Shown one piece after another: positions 24,515 through 32,840 of a stretch of 64,000 bases of DNA. Origin of the DNA: Pseudoscardovia suis (GTDB taxonomy: Bacteria > Actinomycetota > Actinomycetes > Actinomycetales > Bifidobacteriaceae). Numbering within the stretch: position 1 is the first letter of the stretch; each line of letters starts with the position of its first letter. The translations under genes were made by a program, and so were the position numbers. Location: NCBI RefSeq assembly GCF_002797875.1, contig NZ_PGFC01000002.1, positions 124,001 to 188,000 of the forward strand, in the 5' to 3' direction. The notes under the pieces are model-generated. The model searched no databases. It worked only from the letters and a program-made list of their open reading frames with translations, and was not told where the DNA came from.

Positions 24515-25396
24515 TCAGGCACTGGCTGAAAGACGCACGTAGCCAGTTGCTTTGAGCGTGAAACGGATGCGGGAGGCGACGAACAGGTCCACTGCATGTT
24601 CCACCGGAGTGCCATCCGATGTGTAGGCATCGCGGCGGATGCGCACGAGTGGCGAGCCGGTCGGCACATTGAGCAGCATTGCATGCTCCTCCGATGCTTC
24701 GAGGATGTCGAGGTTCTCTTCGGCGTCGCTTACCTCCACGCTGAATTGGTTGCGCAGCGTTCCGTAGAGCGACTTGCCGAAATTGGGGATTGTGAGCATG
24801 TTGGGGAAGAGGCGTGCCGGCAGGGCGCTTTGTTCCAAGGAAAGTGGCGTGCCGCTGAGCTTGCGCAGCCGGCTCAGCGCATATACCGGTGTGCCTTCCA
24901 CAAGCCCTAGGTGGCGGGCCGTGACCGGAGAGGCGACGGTAAGCGTGGCGTTGAGCACCGTGGTGTCAAGGGTGAAGCCCTGCCGTCTGGCGATGGCGGG
25001 CAGCGACTCGATGGTGTCGATGTTGCGAATGAGCTTGCCATCCGAGACAATGATTCCGCCTTTGCGCCCGATGAGGCGCACGATTTCATGGTTGCGCTCC
25101 ATCGTATCGAGCGCAGAACGCAATGCCGCCCGCGTGACGCCCAGCCGTTCGGCGAGCGCTCGCTCAGTGCCGATGCGCTCGCCGCTGATGAGCTGGTCGG
25201 TGCGGATGATGGTGCGGATCCGTCGGATGATTTCTGTGCGTTCTTGCGCGGGCGTTGCCGTTGGCGTTTTAGGCGGCGCCTTGCTTGGCGTAATGGCCGT
25301 CAGCGTGGTGGCTGGTGCGGTGGCCATCAGCGTGGTTGTCGCCATCGCCGTGTTCTTTGGGGTTTTCTTCGTGGTGTTCAGGTGAATGTCTCCCAT
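24515..25396 (-). CDS. GntR-family regulator with UTRA effector domain
   Basis: 293-residue transcription factor. After about 50 Thr/Ala/Pro-rich residues, the winged helix-turn-helix runs from about residue 54 (IIRRIRTIIRTDQLISGERIGTERALAERLGVTRAAL). A UTRA ligand domain occupies about residues 125-290 (VYALSRLRKLSGTPLSLEQS, then VRIRRDAYTSDGTPVEHAVDLF). The long N-terminus means a downstream start such as ATG at 25345 is possible. A perfect inverted repeat lies 46 bp upstream at 25442-25480, a good candidate autoregulatory operator. It sits at one end of the amidase-kinase-symporter locus and is the likely regulator of it. Confidence 0.88.
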   Translation of the reverse strand: MGDIHLNTTKKTPKNTAMATTTLMATAPATTLTAITPSKAPPKTPTATPAQERTEIIRRIRTIIRTDQLISGERIGTERALAERLGVTRAALRSALDTMERNHEIVRLIGRKGGIIVSDGKLIRNIDTIESLPAIARRQGFTLDTTVLNATLTVASPVTARHLGLVEGTPVYALSRLRKLSGTPLSLEQSALPARLFPNMLTIPNFGKSLYGTLRNQFSVEVSDAEENLDILEASEEHAMLLNVPTGSPLVRIRRDAYTSDGTPVEHAVDLFVASRIRFTLKATGYVRLSASA

Positions 25397-25441
25397 GATG
25401 CCGCTCCTTGTTCTCTACCTATTCCGCATGCTATGGGTCGA

Positions 25442-25480
25442 ATGTGTTGTGGGAATTTCCAGTACATTCCCACAACACAT
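25442..25480. promoter_or_regulatory. Perfect 15-bp inverted repeat, candidate GntR operator
   Basis: ATGTGTTGTGGGAAT (25442-25456) and its exact reverse complement (25466-25480) flank a 9-bp spacer between the aminotransferase stop and the gntR start. There is no T tract on the minus strand, which argues against a terminator. A partial half-site (GTGTGTTGTG) occurs near 26895, just upstream of the aminotransferase start. Confidence 0.65.
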
Positions 25481-25516
25481 GCAGGCGCGTGGGCGGCATG
25501 GAACGAGTCCTAGGCG

Positions 25517-26881
25517 CTACAACCCCAGCGTCGTGAGTGTCTTGGTGAACGCGTCCATGAACCAGTCCACGTCGTCTTCGCTGAACACCAGCGGTGGGCG
25601 CAGCTTAAGGATGTTGCCGAATCGTCCACACACAGAGGTCAGTACATGGTTGTCGCGCAGCGTCTCGAGTATGTCGAGTGCCGCCTTCTGGTCGGGGTCG
25701 GTGGTGCCGGGGCGCACGATTTCACAACCGATGTAAAGACCGGCCCCACGAACATCGCCGATGCATGGGTGTGCGTTTTGCAGGCTCTGCACGGCGGTCT
25801 TGAACACGGCGCCGACTTTCTTTGCATTGCTCATTGTGTCTTCGTCGCGCATCACGTCGAGCGTCGCTTGCGCCGCTGCCATGCACACCGGATTGCCGCC
25901 GAAGGTGTTGAAATACGGTATGGAGCCTGCGAAGGGTTCGAGCACTTCGTGTCGCGCCGCCATGAGCGAGGTGGGAAGGCCATTTGCCATCGGTTTGCCG
26001 GACGTCACCAGGTCCGGTACGATGCCTTGGCGTTCGAAGCCCCAGAAGGCGTCGCCGGTGCGGGTGAAACCGGGCTGCACTTCATCGGCAATCCACACGC
26101 CGCCCAGTTCATGGACGGTGTCGATGACCGGCTTCAAGTATCCCACGGGGTCAGGGTACACGCCGTCGGATGAGAAGATTGAATCGGCAAGCAATGCGGC
26201 GAACTTGATGCCATGCCGGTTCATGTCGGCGACGGCTTTGCGCACTTCGTTCGCCACCCAGGTGCCGAATTCCTCGGCGGTGCATTGCGAAGCGGGTTTT
26301 CCGTTGATGACGAGGCGATAAGTGTCGGGCGTGGGGATCATGCGCATCGTGAGTCCTAGTGTTTGTGCGGTTCCCAAGGCAGGGGAGAGCTTGGATGTGA
26401 GCGCAGAGTTGCCGTGGTATGCCTCATGCGTCACAATGACGCCCTCACCTCCCGTGTATGCTTGCGCCACCCGTACCGCGAGATCGTTTGCCTCCGATCC
26501 AGTGCACTGAAACATGACGCGGTCGAGGGGAGCAGGCATCGTCGAGAGGATGTCTGTTGCGTAATTGAGGATGTTCTCGTGCAGGTAGCGCGTGTGCGTG
26601 TTGAGCAACGAGGCTTGGCGCGCTATGGCTTCCACGACGCGCGGATGGCAGTGCCCCACGGATGCGACGTTGTTGTATACGTCGAGGTATTCAACACCAT
26701 CTGCGTCCCACAGATGGCTGCCCTTGCCCTTCAACAGATGAACGGGGTGCCTATAGAACAAGCGATATGCCGGTCCCAGGACCTCGCGTTCCTCGGTGAG
26801 TTTGCGGGTCTGGGGGTCGAGTGCATCCGCCATCTCGGGGCGGAAGCTGTTGGTATCCATGATTGTGGAACGTGTTGCCAT
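25517..26881 (-). CDS. Class III PLP enzyme, AGXT2L-like (ammonio-phospholyase candidate)
   Basis: 454-residue fold-type I PLP enzyme. The cofactor aspartate is in ADEVQPGFTRTGDAFWGF, and the Schiff-base lysine in TSGKPMANGLP. The GKP-NG form and FSSDGVYPDPVGY resemble the AGXT2L group, which splits phosphoethanolamine or 5-phosphohydroxylysine into an aldehyde, ammonia and phosphate instead of transaminating. Ordinary class III aminotransferases usually have KGIGNG-like lysine motifs. Two sugar/choline-kinase-like phosphotransferases nearby would supply the phosphorylated substrate. It is divergent from the amidase operon and upstream of the GntR gene. A second in-frame start is at 26860. 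Transamination of another amine remains possible. Confidence 0.82.
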   Translation of the reverse strand: MATRSTIMDTNSFRPEMADALDPQTRKLTEEREVLGPAYRLFYRHPVHLLKGKGSHLWDADGVEYLDVYNNVASVGHCHPRVVEAIARQASLLNTHTRYLHENILNYATDILSTMPAPLDRVMFQCTGSEANDLAVRVAQAYTGGEGVIVTHEAYHGNSALTSKLSPALGTAQTLGLTMRMIPTPDTYRLVINGKPASQCTAEEFGTWVANEVRKAVADMNRHGIKFAALLADSIFSSDGVYPDPVGYLKPVIDTVHELGGVWIADEVQPGFTRTGDAFWGFERQGIVPDLVTSGKPMANGLPTSLMAARHEVLEPFAGSIPYFNTFGGNPVCMAAAQATLDVMRDEDTMSNAKKVGAVFKTAVQSLQNAHPCIGDVRGAGLYIGCEIVRPGTTDPDQKAALDILETLRDNHVLTSVCGRFGNILKLRPPLVFSEDDVDWFMDAFTKTLTTLGL

Positions 26882-27346
26882 GACGTGCTTCTTTCCTGTG
26901 TGTTGTGTCCTATCTCAACGGTTATGCCCGGTTTCATGGGGCCTGGGACTAGGCGTGTGCTTCATAAGCGATGGAGCCATGCAGACCGGGCGGTTCCGCC
27001 AACAGTTGCACTCTAAGAACGTGCGGCGGGAGGGCGTGCGGCGGTGCATTACCGCGATGTAACGGTATGAGGTTCTTGCGTAAATGGTCGTCGCTTCTGC
27101 ACGTGTGACATCGATGGGGAAGTGTGGCGGCGCAAGGGTTTCATGCGGTGCTGAAATGTGCCCTTAACCGTGCATGCGCCTGAATTTACTGCGGTGTAAC
27201 GCTGCGCCGTGATGTCGAACATTCATCAAACTCACAATGGCATCGAAAGCTTTGAAACCTACCGGCACCAAGTTCGGCGGTTCATTCATCCTCCACATTC
27301 CCATACAGCGGACCAATACAGCGGCAGAAACGGAAGGAGACAGTTC
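26882..27346. promoter_or_regulatory. Divergent control region between aminotransferase and amidase
   Basis: A 465-bp non-coding gap feeding both arms of the locus. It contains TACCG and CGGTA around an 8-bp centre (about 27050-27067), a related GGTGTAACGC at 27190, and a half-site resembling the 25442 inverted repeat near 26895. No gene is supported; open frames entering from the amidase side lack a start signal before 27347. Confidence 0.4.
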
Positions 27347-28735
27347 ATGCTCAGCGTCAGTCAGTGCCGAGCGGCATATCTCAAAGGCGATCTCAAACCG
27401 AGTGCGGTGATTGCTGCCCATCAGCAATATGCACAATCCGTAGCGAAGGCCACGAATGCCATCAGCGTGCTCAACTCCCATGCCCCCGACCAAGCCAAGG
27501 AAAGCGACAAGCGGTATGCGGCAGGCAAGCCCAAGGGGCCACTGGACGGTGTTCCGGTGATTGTCAAAGACAGTTACCATGTCGCGGGGTTTCCGCGCTG
27601 GCATGGCAGCGCCATCCATGACGGCGACCCGGTCTCGGCGTTCTCCTCCGAGCCAATCGAACGGTTAGAAGAGGCCGGCGCCATTGTCATTGCGAAGGGC
27701 ACGATGCCCGACATGGGAATGCTTGCCAGCGGCATCAGTTCCCAATTCGGCATCGTGCGCAATCCGTGGGATGTGCGCATGAGCCCCGGTGGCTCGAGCT
27801 CCGGCGTGGGCGCCGCGCTCGCCAGTGGACTGGCGACATTCGGTTTGGGCACCGATATTGCGGGGTCTGTGCGACTTCCCGCCGCGCATTGCGGACTTGC
27901 TGCAATCAAGCCGACCCAAGGGCGCATCGCCTATTCGCCGGCAAGTGTCATGCGATCATCCGGTGTGTTGGCGCGCACGGTGGCTGATGTTATCGAAGGT
28001 CTGGCCGTTGTTGGTCAACAGTCGGCAAGCGACCCTTGGTGCCTGCCCGGCAGATTCGTGCCGATCCCGGCGCAGCAGGTGTTGGCGCGTGCTCCGCGAG
28101 TCGGCATGCTGCTTGACATGGGGTATGGCGTAGCGCCTGGACCGCAGATTGTGGCAGCCGTCGAGGCGGCAGCCCGTAGGCTCAACGACATGGGGTGCAT
28201 TGTGGAGCCGATTTCGTTGAGTCTCACCGATGCGGATTTCGATAACGCGGATCGTGTATTCAAAGCGCATGCAGCAGCGGAGATTCGCGGCTCTCGGCAT
28301 CCCGAGGCGGTGTTGGGGCTGGTCGCCGAATGGGTTAAGGAAGCTGAATGGCTCTCCATGGCTGACTACGAGGATGCAATGAACGGTTTGTTGGTCACGG
28401 TTGCGCGCATCCAGAAAGCCATTGAGCAGTTCGACTATCTCGTCACTCCGGTGATCCCTGTTGTCGGTTTCCCTGCGGAATCGCCTGGTCCAGGCGACGA
28501 TACGGAATTGCTTCACCACACTCAGTTCACCGCGTGGTGGAACCAGACAACCCAGCCAGCCGCCGTGTATTGCGAGACGATGGACGAAGCGACCCACCTG
28601 CCGATTGACGTGCAGGTGGTGGGGCGGCGCTTCGATGACGCCGGAGTATTGGCACTCGCTGGCGTGCTGGAATCCACTCGTGGGTTCGACATGGAGTTCC
28701 CGACGTTCGAGGAGGCACCTGATGGCAACGAATGA
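27347..28735 (+). CDS. Amidase-signature hydrolase
   Basis: 462-residue serine hydrolase of the amidase-signature family. The catalytic Lys is in VIVKDSY near residue 75, the cis-Ser in MSPGGSSSGVGAALASG near residue 150, and the nucleophilic Ser in GTDIAGSVRLPAA near residue 174, giving the Ser-cisSer-Lys triad. The family includes fatty-acid amide hydrolase and GatA; no gatB or gatC is adjacent, so tRNA amidation is unlikely. The start has GGAAGGAG about 10 nt upstream. The stop overlaps the next gene by 14 nt, so they are translationally coupled. In context it may release an amine or amino alcohol from an N-acyl conjugate. Confidence 0.87.
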   Translation: MLSVSQCRAAYLKGDLKPSAVIAAHQQYAQSVAKATNAISVLNSHAPDQAKESDKRYAAGKPKGPLDGVPVIVKDSYHVAGFPRWHGSAIHDGDPVSAFSSEPIERLEEAGAIVIAKGTMPDMGMLASGISSQFGIVRNPWDVRMSPGGSSSGVGAALASGLATFGLGTDIAGSVRLPAAHCGLAAIKPTQGRIAYSPASVMRSSGVLARTVADVIEGLAVVGQQSASDPWCLPGRFVPIPAQQVLARAPRVGMLLDMGYGVAPGPQIVAAVEAAARRLNDMGCIVEPISLSLTDADFDNADRVFKAHAAAEIRGSRHPEAVLGLVAEWVKEAEWLSMADYEDAMNGLLVTVARIQKAIEQFDYLVTPVIPVVGFPAESPGPGDDTELLHHTQFTAWWNQTTQPAAVYCETMDEATHLPIDVQVVGRRFDDAGVLALAGVLESTRGFDMEFPTFEEAPDGNE

Positions 28736-29729
28736 CATGGCAGTGAAGGAAATAGCCACAGAGACAACAACTGCGGCGGAAGTCGCTGTGAAACAGACGG
28801 TTGCAAAGGCGGTGCCTGCGAACCAGATCTGGACGTGGGGCGACGTTAAAGAAACAGACATCACCCCCAGCTGGGTGGGCGGCGATGGAATCTTTACCGA
28901 AGGCACATCCGCGGATGGCGCTGCCGTGTTGCGTCGCGTGTTCACTAAGGAAAGCCGCCCCTACGCTTCGCCGTTTGAGAGCATCGCCACGATGATGCAG
29001 ATTGCCGGCAATGCGGGTATCTCACCGCAGGTCATCTCGGTGGGTGAAGACGAAATCATCATGCGCAAGCTCCCTAGCACATGGCGCAATGCGAAGCTCG
29101 ATGAGTTGCGCGACCCGTATGTGCTGTGGGCTGTGCTTGAACAGCACCGGCGCGTGCATGAGCTCACGATCCCACAAGGGCATGAGGTCATGGAACGTGA
29201 CCTCATCGAAGACGTGTTCGGTATGCGTGACCTGTACCGCCACACCGGCAAGCGTATGCCAAGGGACGTGGACCGCCTGCTCAAGCGACTCGATCCCTTC
29301 ATCCGCCGCGTGGATGAATTTCATGAGCCGGCTGTGCCATGCCATGGCGATGGCGCGGCATCGAATGTGCTCCTCAATCCCCAGATTCGCCCCGGCGACG
29401 TGGCACAGCCCCTGCTGTGTGGCTGGACGGTGAGTGGCGTCATGGATCCATTGGAAGAGGCCGGTTCCGTGCTCTCCGAAGTCGGGCCCTTCTGCGGTGT
29501 GCCCTCCATGCTGATTAACGGCTTGGGGCTGCCATCATCGGCGCTGCCCGTCGCACAAGTTTTCGGAATCCTCGGCGACCTGTATTGGGCACTCATTGGC
29601 TTGTGGCGCAGCGCCACGACGGATACCCCTCAGATTGATTTTGCCAAATACGGCTTGTGGCGACTTGTCAAAGCCAATAACCAGCTGCTGCTACCGACCG
29701 GACCAGCGGAATGGCTCAACAGCCTGTGA
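28722..29729 (+). CDS. APH/choline-kinase-fold phosphotransferase 1
   Basis: 335 residues. The catalytic loop CHGDGAASNVLL (H-G-D-x4-N) near residue 203 and the metal-binding VMDPLEEAG near residue 238 place it in the aminoglycoside-phosphotransferase/choline-kinase superfamily. The usual nucleotide-binding lysine of the N-lobe is not clear: the corresponding VLRRVFT has arginines. The start overlaps the amidase by 14 nt and has GGAGG 6 nt upstream; a second ATG is at 28737. The first 30 residues are Thr/Ala-rich. Its C-terminal FAKYGLWRLVKANNQ parallels YWKYGIWKLMRAYTY in the next gene, so the two are probably ancient duplicates. The substrate is unknown. Confidence 0.75.
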   Translation: MATNDMAVKEIATETTTAAEVAVKQTVAKAVPANQIWTWGDVKETDITPSWVGGDGIFTEGTSADGAAVLRRVFTKESRPYASPFESIATMMQIAGNAGISPQVISVGEDEIIMRKLPSTWRNAKLDELRDPYVLWAVLEQHRRVHELTIPQGHEVMERDLIEDVFGMRDLYRHTGKRMPRDVDRLLKRLDPFIRRVDEFHEPAVPCHGDGAASNVLLNPQIRPGDVAQPLLCGWTVSGVMDPLEEAGSVLSEVGPFCGVPSMLINGLGLPSSALPVAQVFGILGDLYWALIGLWRSATTDTPQIDFAKYGLWRLVKANNQLLLPTGPAEWLNSL

Positions 29730-29773
29730 ATCGGCAATCATACGGGGTTCACTTTGCATGAAAGGAGTTTGAG

Positions 29774-30808
29774 ATGAACGTGAAGATCTACCAGCCTTTG
29801 GCACAATCGGGAACGGCGGCTGCTGACGACGGGAAGACGCTGCAGGAAGCCGCCCCATCACATACACCGATGGTGACTGAAGATCGCGTACGCCACTCGC
29901 AATACGTCGTGGTACCTCAGGATGTGCTCGCTGCCATCGAGGATGCCACGATATGGCAAGGACAGACGGTGACCGCCAAGCCGATGAGCGGAGGGTTGAC
30001 CAACGAGAATTGGAAGGTCATCGATGCCCAGGGAACGCCATATTTCCTCAAAGTTCCTGGCCAAGGAACCGGCTTTATTGACCGCAGCAATGTGGATGCC
30101 GGTACACTGCGTGCCTCCGATCTAGGGATTGGTGCCGCAGTATATGAGTTCGATCCCGACAGCGGTGTGGAGATCACCGAATTCCTCGACGGCTGGCGCA
30201 CCTGCACCACCACATCTCTGAGAACCCAGGAAGAGGGGCTGCAGGCGATGGATATCTACCGCAAGCTCCACGGAGGGGAGCAGTTCACGAACACAAACAC
30301 CCTGTTCGATCAGATTGATCTTCATCTGGATCAGCTTCGGGAGCATTCCATCGATGTGCCTTCGTGGGTGAATGGGTTGATTGATGAGTACCACGATGTC
30401 AAAGCACGGTTTCTGGCGTCTGGGCTTGACATCGTGCCTTGTCACAACGATCCCATGCCAGGCAATTTCATGGTCAAAGATCACCAGATGCGTATCATCG
30501 ATTTCGATTTCTGCGGCAACAACGAAGAAAGTTGTGAAGTGGCGCTTTTCATTGCTGAGATGTTCTACGACGATGAAGACATGTTGCCACTGCTTGAGGA
30601 ATACTTTGGTGCGGTCGACGAGCGTCATCTCGCCCGTGTTCGCGCTGCCCGTGTCATCGGCGACATCAAATGGGGCTTGTGGGGAATTATCAACTCCGTC
30701 GTACGCACTGTGCAATTCGACTACTGGAAGTACGGCATCTGGAAACTGATGCGTGCGTACACATACAAGAACCAGCTGGATTGGCCAAAAGTCAAAGAAT
30801 TCATCTGA
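29774..30808 (+). CDS. APH/choline-kinase-fold phosphotransferase 2
   Basis: 344-residue kinase-like protein closer to the choline/ethanolamine kinase pattern. The N-lobe lysine is in PYFLKVPG, the catalytic loop is CHNDPMPGNFMV near residue 223, and the metal site is IIDFDFCGNNEE near residue 242. All core residues are present, so it should be active. It follows phosphotransferase 1 by 44 bp with its own ribosome site (AAAGGAG). With the AGXT2L-like enzyme it fits a kinase plus phospholyase pair, as known for hydroxylysine and ethanolamine metabolism in animals. It could also phosphorylate choline-like headgroups. Confidence 0.82.
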   Translation: MNVKIYQPLAQSGTAAADDGKTLQEAAPSHTPMVTEDRVRHSQYVVVPQDVLAAIEDATIWQGQTVTAKPMSGGLTNENWKVIDAQGTPYFLKVPGQGTGFIDRSNVDAGTLRASDLGIGAAVYEFDPDSGVEITEFLDGWRTCTTTSLRTQEEGLQAMDIYRKLHGGEQFTNTNTLFDQIDLHLDQLREHSIDVPSWVNGLIDEYHDVKARFLASGLDIVPCHNDPMPGNFMVKDHQMRIIDFDFCGNNEESCEVALFIAEMFYDDEDMLPLLEEYFGAVDERHLARVRAARVIGDIKWGLWGIINSVVRTVQFDYWKYGIWKLMRAYTYKNQLDWPKVKEFI

Positions 30809-30934
30809 TTCACCTATCCATCCACTAATCATCCATTTACACACTCGACTCTGGGGCCTTGCGCAAGCCATGCCTTGTGCAGACGCTGTCTGCCACAGGT
30901 CGGTCGCACGGCCGCAGAGGGAAGGGTCATCATC

Positions 30935-31267
30935 ATGAAGGAATTCATTCGTTCATGGACGGCGAAGACCAAGATTATGGTTTTCGCAGTCCTGTACACC
31001 ATCGTTTTGGCATTCGCCGTTCTGCCACCACTCTACCTGTGGGGGAGCGGCCGCACCGCACTGTTCTTGGGTGCGCCGATGTCGGTCTGGTACTGGTTTT
31101 TCGACTTCTTCGCCCTGCTCGCCATCATGGGACTGCTCTATTGGGTCGAGGATGTGCGCGGGGAGGTCGATCCTGAGGAAGACGCTCCCGCAGACAACGC
31201 AACGCTCCCACCGACATCCGGAACTATCACCGCTGCTGCAGGTGCCACTAGCGGCAACATCAACTGA
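30935..31267 (+). CDS. Small two-helix membrane protein, symporter partner
   Basis: 110 residues with hydrophobic segments at about 13-36 and 48-68, the second followed by the acidic DVRGEVDPEED. The layout resembles the small accessory proteins encoded next to sodium:solute symporters (DUF3311/YhdT-like). It ends 16 bp before the symporter start, so it is cotranscribed with it. The family assignment is tentative, but the pairing is clear. Confidence 0.7.
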   Translation: MKEFIRSWTAKTKIMVFAVLYTIVLAFAVLPPLYLWGSGRTALFLGAPMSVWYWFFDFFALLAIMGLLYWVEDVRGEVDPEEDAPADNATLPPTSGTITAAAGATSGNIN

Positions 31268-31283
31268 GAGGAAGTGACACATC

Positions 31284-32840
31284 ATGGCAATCATGTTTGG
31301 CATGCTGGCATTGTTTTTCGCTGGCATCATTTTGATTCTTTTCATCACCAATAAGAACTCCCGTACATTCAATGACTATGCGGTCGCCGGCCGATCCTTC
31401 GGCCCATGGTACGTAGCCATGTGCTACGTGAATTCGTGGTGGCCGGGCACCGTATTCATCTCGTTCGCCGGCCTCACCGTAGCCTCTGGCGTCTTCGGAT
31501 TCTATGGACTCGCGTATTCCACCCTCGGTCTGGCGTTTATGTATTTTGTCGCGACACGGGCGTGGCGCTGGGGCAAGCAATACAATCTCGTTACCCAACC
31601 TGACCTCATGCGCCTGCGCTATTCATCCAAGGCAGTGGGCGTCGTCACATCCATCATCGGTGCCATCGCCATCTTGCCGTGGACGATTCTAGGCATGCAG
31701 GCGCTCGCCACCGTGTTCCACATCGCTTCACGCGGCAGCTGGGCACTGCCCGTGTGCTTGGGCGCCGGTCTGCTGGTCATTCTGGTCCGTCAAATCTGGA
31801 CCGTGCAGATGGGCATGCGTGGCCTCATCTACACCGACATGTATCAGGGGCTATTCGCTTATGTGCTTGCCGCAATCGTATGCGTCTACCTGCTCGTGGC
31901 GCCTTCTTCGCCCGCGAACTGGGGCGATCTGTCAACGATTTCCGCCGACCTGCTCAAGGTGCCTGGCGACGGCGGCTCCTATGGCCCGTGGTACCTGTTC
32001 TGCCAGGTGTTCACTGGTGTTGTGGGCGCACTGTGCTGGCCGATGAGTTTCGTGCGCATCTACACGGCTAATAACGTGCGCGCTGTCAAGAAGTCCACGA
32101 ACCGCGCCATTATCATCGCTGGCGGTTTCTACGCGTTGCTCACGCTCGTGATGCTTGCCGCGGCGCATATCCCCGAAGTGGCGGCAAATCCCCAGTCCGG
32201 CTGGACAACGCTGCTCCAGCAGTATGGTGGTGTATGGTTGCTCGGTCTGGGACTCGTCATGATTTTCGCTGGTTCCATCGGTCACATCGACGGTAGCGTG
32301 CAGGCAGCAGGAACGCAGATTGCCAACGATATCATTGGCAACCGCGTGCACCTCGACGATGCTGCCAAGACTCGCGTGTCCAAGATTTGCATGGTCGTGT
32401 TCGTGCTTGTCTCCGCCGTGCTTGCGTATTTCACGAACGGCATGTCACGCTTGCAGTTGCTGGCGCAGTTGTCGTATCAAGGCATTGTGCAGATTGCAGT
32501 GCCGCTGTTTTTCGGTATCTTCTGCAAGTTCGGTAACAAGTATGGTGCGCTCGCTGGCATGATTTCCGGTTTTGCCGTGGCGGCAGTTCTCACCGTCATC
32601 TACCCTGATGACATTGCGGCGCTGGGAAGCCTCACGTCTGGCGTGGTGGGCATGATCGTGAACCTTGCTGTGTATGTAGTCATTTCCCTGGCGACGCGTG
32701 GCAAGATGAGCTCTCAGGAGCTTGCTCACATCGAGGAGCTTTTCGCGGTTGCCTCTGCCCGCAGGTCCTCCGTGGCGGCGGTGGAGAGTGCAGCTGTGGA
32801 AACCGAGGTCATTGTCACCGAGGATGCCGTGGTGCAGTAA
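31284..32840 (+). CDS. Sodium:solute symporter (SSS family)
   Basis: 518-residue inner-membrane transporter with about 12-13 helices. The start, with FITNKNSRTFNDYAVAGRSFGPW, is the standard opening of SSS proteins, followed by YVNSWWPGTVFISFAG and the central QIWTVQMGMRGLIYTDMYQG. It would couple sodium entry to uptake of a small organic solute such as an amino acid, amine or vitamin. Being last in the amidase-kinase operon, it probably imports the substrate or product handled by those enzymes. The 40-residue Val/Ala/Glu tail is cytoplasmic and unremarkable. Confidence 0.9.
   Translation: MAIMFGMLALFFAGIILILFITNKNSRTFNDYAVAGRSFGPWYVAMCYVNSWWPGTVFISFAGLTVASGVFGFYGLAYSTLGLAFMYFVATRAWRWGKQYNLVTQPDLMRLRYSSKAVGVVTSIIGAIAILPWTILGMQALATVFHIASRGSWALPVCLGAGLLVILVRQIWTVQMGMRGLIYTDMYQGLFAYVLAAIVCVYLLVAPSSPANWGDLSTISADLLKVPGDGGSYGPWYLFCQVFTGVVGALCWPMSFVRIYTANNVRAVKKSTNRAIIIAGGFYALLTLVMLAAAHIPEVAANPQSGWTTLLQQYGGVWLLGLGLVMIFAGSIGHIDGSVQAAGTQIANDIIGNRVHLDDAAKTRVSKICMVVFVLVSAVLAYFTNGMSRLQLLAQLSYQGIVQIAVPLFFGIFCKFGNKYGALAGMISGFAVAAVLTVIYPDDIAALGSLTSGVVGMIVNLAVYVVISLATRGKMSSQELAHIEELFAVASARRSSVAAVESAAVETEVIVTEDAVVQ

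Follow-up and report, generated by a model that had tools for sequence, protein, structure and literature searches.

Routes in which an amino alcohol is broken down through a phospho-lyase are known, and few genes have been assigned to them. Pseudokinases are known mostly from signalling. The RMM loci are described in PMC4207490 as containing hydrolases, a phosphotransferase, an SDR, a permease, a GntR regulator and an aminotransferase, with amino-2-propanol inducing the SDR. Here we analyse a window of 64,000 nucleotides (the whole stretch of DNA studied) from Pseudoscardovia suis, with a bifidobacterial gene cluster whose probable role is to take up an amide, release its amino alcohol, phosphorylate that and cleave the product to an aldehyde, ammonia and phosphate. 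Its unusual trait is that, of two kinase-fold proteins, one looks catalytically dead and yet, in the relatives we examined, adjoins the working kinase. We recognised no published description of this gene cassette, or of a choline-type kinase beside an amidase, among titles and the beginnings of abstracts, in which the subscription literature is thinly covered. The cluster has the following features.

24515..25396, minus strand: GntR/UTRA transcription regulator (Pfam UTRA 112 bits, GntR 28 bits)
25443..25479, no strand: inverted repeat, its two arms identical over 14 bases and 9 bases apart, lying between the lyase stop and the regulator start
25517..26881, minus strand: class III PLP enzyme, predicted amino-alcohol O-phosphate phospho-lyase (PDB matches, tree, residues)
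27209..28735, plus strand: amidase-signature hydrolase (Pfam Amidase 241 bits; conserved Lys120, Ser197, Ser220)
about 28722..29729, plus strand: KIN1, choline-kinase-fold predicted pseudokinase (profile match, AF2 fold, residues)
29774..30808, plus strand: KIN2, choline/ethanolamine-kinase-fold small-molecule kinase, predicted active (Pfam Choline_kinase 65.5 bits)
30935..31267, plus strand: small membrane protein, adjoining the symporter; its membrane nature was judged by eye
31284..32840, plus strand: sodium:solute symporter (SSS) family transporter (Pfam SSF 70 bits)

The first-pass annotation had listed a regulator, a PLP enzyme and, divergently, an amidase, two choline-kinase/APH-fold proteins, a small membrane protein and an SSS transporter, and each is an open frame in its place. 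Taking the ATG at 28722 as the KIN1 start, as read from the sequence, KIN1 overlaps the amidase by 14 bases. The same gene order, amidase-KIN1-KIN2-small protein-SSS, is found again in G003, G002, G614, G1242 and the Atopobiaceae locus L036, with about 49-96% identity per protein, and the layout is therefore beyond chance. Two starts may lie downstream of those annotated: the regulator homologue in G003 aligns only from residue 51, and for the amidase the alignment with several homologues sets in near residues 44-56, so that its start may be near 27347. The inverted repeat, spotted by eye and outside the spacer range of our motif script, is a possible operator or hairpin. The two arms are the only occurrences of its exact 13-base core in the window's genome (eight more places match with one mismatch), and the repeat is decayed in G003. 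A common operator motif was not found, each 11-base word being confined to at most two of the 11 stretches compared.

The PLP enzyme scores 242 bits with Pfam Aminotran_3 and has the expected GKP-NG lysine motif in the form GKPMANG, the PLP lysine being Lys296. Its best PDB matches are 6tor (326 bits) and 5g4i (293 bits), and GabT 4ffc reaches 191 bits. In a tree of 36 rows, in which long branches were flagged among the references and which leaves aside three class III proteins of the window's own genome (L003, L005, L006), the enzyme forms one group with human ethanolamine-phosphate phospho-lyase and the Arthrobacter phospholyase (100/100 split), apart from six transaminase/racemase references. 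Position 426 is Lys in all 30 lyase-group rows and Arg in all six references; the Arg conserved there in transaminases binds carboxylate. A further sign is that 14 positions are identical in the 30 lyase-group rows and absent from the six references, some of which are gapped at two of these positions. Score, tree and residues agree with the first-pass annotation that the enzyme is phospho-lyase-like and not transaminase-like, and it is a predicted phospho-lyase that would release phosphate, ammonia and an aldehyde. On the tree and these residues we reject a true transaminase; a firm grouping with transaminases, which the first-pass annotation had set as a refuting condition, is not what the sequences show.

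KIN1 and KIN2 differ in what they have kept. In KIN2, K93, H224, D226, N231 and D243 are conserved in 14 of 14 copies, and positions 300 and 303, where choline kinases have an aromatic pair, are Trp or Phe in all 14. Its AF2 model has a mean pLDDT of 87.5, with 3dxq and LicA as best Foldseek matches. KIN1 scores 20.5 with Pfam Choline_kinase, below the cut-off of 29, and its assignment therefore needed profile and fold evidence: the profile matches 3dxq at 68.9 bits, and the AF2 model (mean pLDDT 81; residues 1-29 and 43-52 under 50) has 3dxq and choline/ethanolamine kinases as its best Foldseek matches. In KIN1, Gly replaces the metal-binding Asp in 11 of 14 copies, among them the window copy; five copies (L068, L117, L119, L175, L176) have Ser or Glu for the catalytic Asp, and the residue aligned with KIN2 Asn79 is never Asn, at a place where the alignment is less sure. 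These losses make it unlikely that KIN1 still works as a catalyst, binding metal differently and acting on another substrate or at another position, although the window copy retains the HGD...N catalytic loop, both Asp residues are intact in two copies (L116, L118) and the ATP-binding Lys is conserved in seven of the 14. The other seven copies have lost this Lys, and the window copy, with Arg there, has neither the metal-binding Asp nor the ATP-binding Lys of an active choline kinase. The suggestion of two kinases thus holds for the fold of both proteins and probably fails for activity in KIN1; KIN2 keeps all kinase residues checked. From their residues only KIN2 looks catalytic, and KIN1 is probably its catalytically dead paralogue, a predicted pseudokinase.

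KIN1 and KIN2 form one clade each, with matching sub-clades. Their distances correlate at 0.93, a value that also reflects the shared descent of the whole cassette, since values with the amidase are similar (KIN1 0.94, KIN2 0.96). The same five among 394 sampled genomes of the class carry both, the KIN2 profile matching in 40 of the 394 at 1e-40, with the 35 outside the five at 5e-49 or weaker. KIN1-profile matches without an adjacent pair occurred in 12 of 18 matched genomes in one search and in 34 of 37 in another; genomes without a pair scored 1.5e-23 or weaker, and the KIN1 of pairs 2.9e-36 or better. G799, G896 and G926 have two non-adjacent KIN1-profile matches each. We tentatively propose, with somewhat less than even confidence, that small-molecule metabolism has, in KIN1 and KIN2, a kinase and a pseudokinase that form an obligate pair. 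After duplication of a choline kinase, one copy would have lost metal binding, perhaps once, in an ancestor of most lineages, and have been retained as a subunit with a structural, allosteric or substrate-presenting role. The pair would have been packaged with the amidase as a mobile module feeding phospho-lyases, which in one genome belong to a microcompartment.

The sequence itself shows the gene content, the grouping of the lyase apart from transaminases, the intact residues of KIN2 and the degenerate ones of KIN1, as well as the conserved amidase-KIN1-KIN2 unit and the module swap around one lyase described below. For the transport substrate, the order of steps, the chemistry, the regulation and the KIN1-KIN2 complex, we infer the following pathway. 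The SSS symporter and its small partner would bring an amide compound in, and the amidase would hydrolyse it to a free amino alcohol. KIN2, probably complexed with a catalytically dead KIN1, would phosphorylate the hydroxyl, and the PLP lyase would remove phosphate and ammonia to leave an aldehyde. We give an even chance to the reading of the locus as a UTRA-regulated catabolic unit of this kind, acting on a small amino alcohol in amide form. Among candidate amines, ethanolamine and 1-amino-2-propanol are the likeliest. An earlier proposal of import or release, phosphorylation and elimination of an amino alcohol is partly supported: the layout, the lyase-like PLP enzyme and the intact KIN2 residues fit it, and KIN1 is probably inactive as a kinase. 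The best specific NCBIfam models for the transporter, MctP (61 bits) and PanF (54.5 bits), are both far below their cut-offs, and they describe monocarboxylates and pantothenate, not amines, which counts against this reading of the locus. A homologue of the small protein adjoins the SSS gene in all eight other loci with SSS (L020, L021, L036, L068, L116, L118, L173, L240). No Pfam family was above cut-off in a scan of seven members of this small protein, so that it was not recognised as a known symporter subunit.

The amidase-KIN1-KIN2 cassette was seen in 12 genomes, and in all 12 the amidase lies less than 3 kb from the kinase pair. The lyase is linked in seven of these (three families), elsewhere in two (about 100 kb away in G1242, on a separate contig in G041) and was not found in G315, G345 and G807, where the best class III matches reach 219-267 bits versus 560-837 for lyases. 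This fixed core beside a variable lyase could also mean that phosphorylation comes first, KIN2 acting on the hydroxyl while the N-acyl amino alcohol is still intact, which would trap the imported amide, before the amidase frees the phospho-amine for the lyase. In known choline kinases the aromatic pair holds a cation; the pair at 300 and 303 is kept in all 14 KIN2 copies, while an acylated amine is non-cationic, and we therefore regard this order as improbable. For hydrolysis before phosphorylation, the three genomes in which no lyase was found imply that what phosphorylation yields there is either a different compound or one that is used in a different way. An allantoate/carbamoylase-type M20 hydrolase adjoins the cassette in G315 and G345, and G345 also has an NCS1-like transporter a few kb off, which suggests other substrates there.

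The same M20 neighbours, the missing lyases and the distant ones in G1242 and G041 would fit a cassette that is an independent system of ureide or other amide metabolism, merely standing beside a lyase. The seven linked cases argue against this, as does a module swap. B. boum (L033) carries an APH kinase and an amino-acid permease at a syntenic site where G614 (L173) carries amidase-KIN1-KIN2-small protein-SSS; the lyases that they surround are 93% and 91% like that of the window. This swap around one lyase suggests the same product class for both modules. Both modules also surround a single lyase in G002 (L021), and an APH kinase, a lyase and the cassette stand together in L079. Independence of the cassette from the lyase thus seems quite unlikely. 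A lyase is accompanied by another kinase family in 51 of 80 named loci, which are the best 80 of 581, not a census, and some of which are only a few kb long.

The amidase Lys120, Ser197 and Ser220, which we take to be the amidase-signature Lys, Ser, Ser triad, are conserved in 13 of 13 aligned copies; the alignment covers 13 of 14 loci (the L117 amidase, split over two frames, was omitted), with stops read as X (two in the L020 stretch, one in that of L176). The closest solved relatives of the amidase are entries named Amidase (3a1k at 122.5 bits, 3a1i, 8xac, 5h6s) and not FAAH. That it is a bacterial FAAH freeing ethanolamine from gut N-acylethanolamines, or that the pathway serves hydroxylysine, is very improbable, since FAAH chains are among its PDB matches but rank lower (6dhv 98.7 bits, 1mt5 88.1 bits), records named Microbacteriaceae and Propionibacteriaceae contain the cassette too, and no evidence was found for long-chain binding or hydroxylysine. 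Host N-acylethanolamines and collagen hydroxylysine, which the first-pass annotation had called attractive candidates, found no support in our sequence comparisons.

The locus would add an amide-fed entry module to the phospho-lyase routes for amino alcohols, and, through the module swap around the lyase, comparison becomes a means of deducing the substrate. A conserved pseudokinase in a catabolic operon, if true, would offer a simple system for learning what a kinase without activity contributes, and a few small proteins are enough for testing the proposed system.

Compared with known systems, the predicted lyase shares one tree group (100/100) with human ETNPPL/AGXT2L1 (PDB 6tor) and the Arthrobacter phospholyase (PDB 5g4i); unlike these, it neighbours amidase and choline-kinase-type genes. 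Compared with the HYKK-PHYKPL hydroxylysine system, KIN2 is choline-kinase-type. KIN1 and KIN2 are both like choline/ethanolamine kinases (LicA 4r77, 3dxq, human choline kinase) by profile and fold, but KIN1 lacks the metal-binding Asp. The permease-APH kinase-phospholyase module of B. boum has the same lyase family and a UTRA regulator, and it occupies the chromosomal site of the G614 cassette; the window has the SSS symporter, amidase, KIN1 and KIN2 in its place. The B. boum APH kinase resembles PDB 6ef6, presumably the aminopropanol kinase of a mycobacterial microcompartment, and an APH kinase of this type was not found in the window's genome (90% complete). A microcompartment is not indicated in that genome, where no BMC shell gene (PF00936) matched, a control search matching in two of 14 genomes, and an SDR like that of G183 was not found in the window. 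In G183 (L118, L177) the cassette, the SDR, microcompartment shell genes, the lyase and an aldehyde dehydrogenase lie within about 18 kb. This union of shell genes, lyase and cassette is like the RMM loci that PMC4207490 discusses for amino-2-propanol, and the aminotransferase of those loci may be a lyase of this family.

The genes of the candidate amino-alcohol locus were all found where the first-pass annotation had placed them. KIN1 and KIN2 denote two proteins of choline-kinase fold, UTRA a GntR/UTRA regulator and SSS a sodium:solute symporter.

24515-25396, minus strand, UTRA regulator
25517-26881, minus strand, class III PLP enzyme (predicted phospho-lyase, hereafter the lyase)
27209-28735, plus strand, amidase
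28722-29729, plus strand, KIN1 (predicted pseudokinase)
29774-30808, plus strand, KIN2 (predicted active kinase)
30935-31267, plus strand, small membrane protein, no Pfam family over the cut-off
31284-32840, plus strand, SSS symporter

If the KIN1 ATG is at 28722, the amidase and KIN1 frames overlap by 14 bases. The genome is 2.25 Mb (90% complete), and among the matches listed the nearest relatives of its lyase are Bifidobacterium records; it is taken here to belong to the Bifidobacteriaceae. Between the regulator start and the lyase stop lies an inverted repeat (25443-25479) with exact 14-base arms; its exact 13-base core is absent elsewhere in the genome sequence, no T-run follows it by eye, and its counterpart in genome G003 is decayed. 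A homologue of the small membrane protein adjoins the SSS gene in all eight other loci in which that SSS was detected.

The PLP enzyme had been proposed to be lyase-like rather than to group with transaminases, and scores, tree and residues bear this out. Its top matches among solved structures are 6tor (326 bits) and 5g4i (293 bits), both annotated there as phospho-lyases, which we take to be the human ethanolamine-phosphate phospho-lyase and an Arthrobacter phospholyase, respectively; the best transaminase reaches 191. In a 36-row tree, with long branches flagged among the references, a 100/100 branch places the two phospho-lyases with the window enzyme and 27 relatives, apart from E. coli GabT and ArgD, GabT 4ffc, racemase 9wrf and two proteins of the same genome. 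Fourteen positions are identical in all 30 lyase-group rows and absent from the six references, which are partly gapped at two of them; N70, N71, R98, N300, N325 and K426 are lyase-specific positions outside the gapped pair. K426 is Arg in all six transaminase/racemase references, and in transaminases Arg at that position binds the substrate carboxylate. The tree placement and these residues therefore argue, as far as sequence goes, against membership of the true transaminases, and the core idea of the first-pass annotation appears right about the predicted lyase.

Its two kinases stand as to fold, which is that of choline/ethanolamine kinases in both KIN1 and KIN2 (the KIN1 structure model is of low confidence over residues 1-29 and 43-52), but two active enzymes are unlikely because the KIN1 residues are degenerate. 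KIN2 retains Lys93, His224, Asp226, Asn231 and Asp243 in all 14 copies. In KIN1 the metal-binding Asp is retained in three of 14 copies (loci L068, L116 and L118) and is Gly in the other 11, including the window's; the N-lobe Lys is Arg in seven, and the catalytic Asp has been replaced by Ser in L068, L175 and L176 and by Glu in L117 and L119, so that only L116 and L118 have both Asp residues. In the tree the three copies retaining the metal Asp and the eleven Gly copies fall into separate clades (88/80), consistent with one loss event, on a branch that is not strongly supported. KIN1 (100/100) and KIN2 (91/81) are each one clade with matching sub-clades, and 88 of the 91 pairwise comparisons show greater divergence in KIN1.

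The KIN1-KIN2 pairing is strict in the tested sets. Among 394 sampled genomes of the class, the KIN1 profile matched five at 1e-10; the KIN2 profile matched 40 at 1e-40 and just those five at 4e-126 or better, its best match beyond them being 5e-49. Tandem pairs, sought via KIN1 in overlapping sets of 394 (class), 396 (order), 396 (phylum) and 189 (family) genomes, were found in 12 genomes, and the KIN1 profile also matched 12 and 34 genomes lacking an adjacent pair in the order and phylum searches, at 1.5e-23 or weaker. In all 12 an amidase lies no more than 3 kb from the pair, completing the cassette amidase-KIN1-KIN2; in G345 its homologue runs over two frames (L117 12165-13338), a genuine break or a sequencing error. 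A UTRA regulator is within the fetched stretch in 11 of the 12 and was not found in that of G807. Reached via the lyase, the trio also occurs in L036 (Atopobiaceae), L068 (Propionibacteriaceae) and L079 (Microbacteriaceae), where the highly diverged KIN1 was assigned from position and alignment and clusters with that of L174 in the tree (100/99). The striking feature is a conserved pair, predicted to be kinase and pseudokinase, within an amidase cassette of distant Actinobacteria. In L175 and L176 the cassette is next to a beta-PGM-like HAD gene and to ABC transporter genes, BPD_transp_2 in each and Peripla_BP_4 in L175 as well, and neither stretch yielded an SSS symporter.

The lyase is a frequent, non-fixed companion of the cassette. 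It is inside the fetched stretch in seven of the 12 cassette genomes (the window's, G002, G003, G614, G714, G723 and G183) and elsewhere in the genome in two (G041 and G1242). It was not found in G315, G345 or G807, where the best matches score 219-267 bits against 560-837 for lyases, and an allantoate/carbamoylase-type M20 hydrolase adjoins the cassette in G315 and G345, which argues against a single fixed pathway. A second lyase copy in G002 (L022 9339-10700, on a second contig), 88% like the window's, accompanies a UTRA gene, with no cassette within the 19.9 kb fetched. In six further loci (L041, L052, L053, L058, L059 and L063) close lyase relatives are next to ABC transporter genes, with a DeoR-type regulator in five and no match to either of two APH kinase families; these may import a phosphate ester directly.

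One or other of those kinase families is present in 51 of 80 named loci (the best 80 of 581, picked by lyase, some spanning just a few kb), recurrently as APH kinase, amino-acid permease and lyase. Both flanks match between B. boum L033 and L173 of G614; between them lie APH kinase and permease in the former and amidase-KIN1-KIN2-small protein-SSS in the latter, with the lyase gene inverted. Both modules surround one lyase in L021 of G002, and L079 has APH kinase, lyase and trio together. No APH kinase of these families was found in G614 or in the incomplete drafts of G003 and the window's genome. Given the swap at one site and the co-occurrences, both modules would, on the simplest reading, feed the same kind of phospho-amino alcohol.

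The proposed pathway, in which an amino alcohol is imported or freed, phosphorylated and split by the lyase, is plausible. Its suggested source in host lipids or collagen is unsupported, nothing in the analysis pointing there. In G183 the cassette stands with an SDR gene; beyond them and a set of symporter and regulator genes come microcompartment shell-protein genes on both sides of the lyase, with an aldehyde dehydrogenase after them (L118 8780-19901 and L177 654-6298). One shell gene matches no Pfam family and was identified from its 41-44% identity to the gene next to it. Shell queries gave no match in the 80 named lyase loci (best 80 of 581), so G183 is a single case. The best PDB match of the B. 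boum APH kinase is 6ef6 (170 bits), presumably the aminopropanol kinase of the RMM microcompartment system. RMM loci, as PMC4207490 describes them, include genes for an aminotransferase, a GntR regulator, a permease, a phosphotransferase and an SDR; amino-2-propanol is cited there as inducer of the SDR. Gene context, inducer and structure match together make 1-amino-2-propanol a serious candidate substrate alongside ethanolamine. Another actinobacterial ethanolamine route runs, according to PMC6529630, via gamma-glutamylethanolamide; a glutamine-synthetase-like gene is near the cassette in one cassette genome, G041. With its shell genes, lyase and cassette, the G183 region resembles the RMM loci of PMC4207490.
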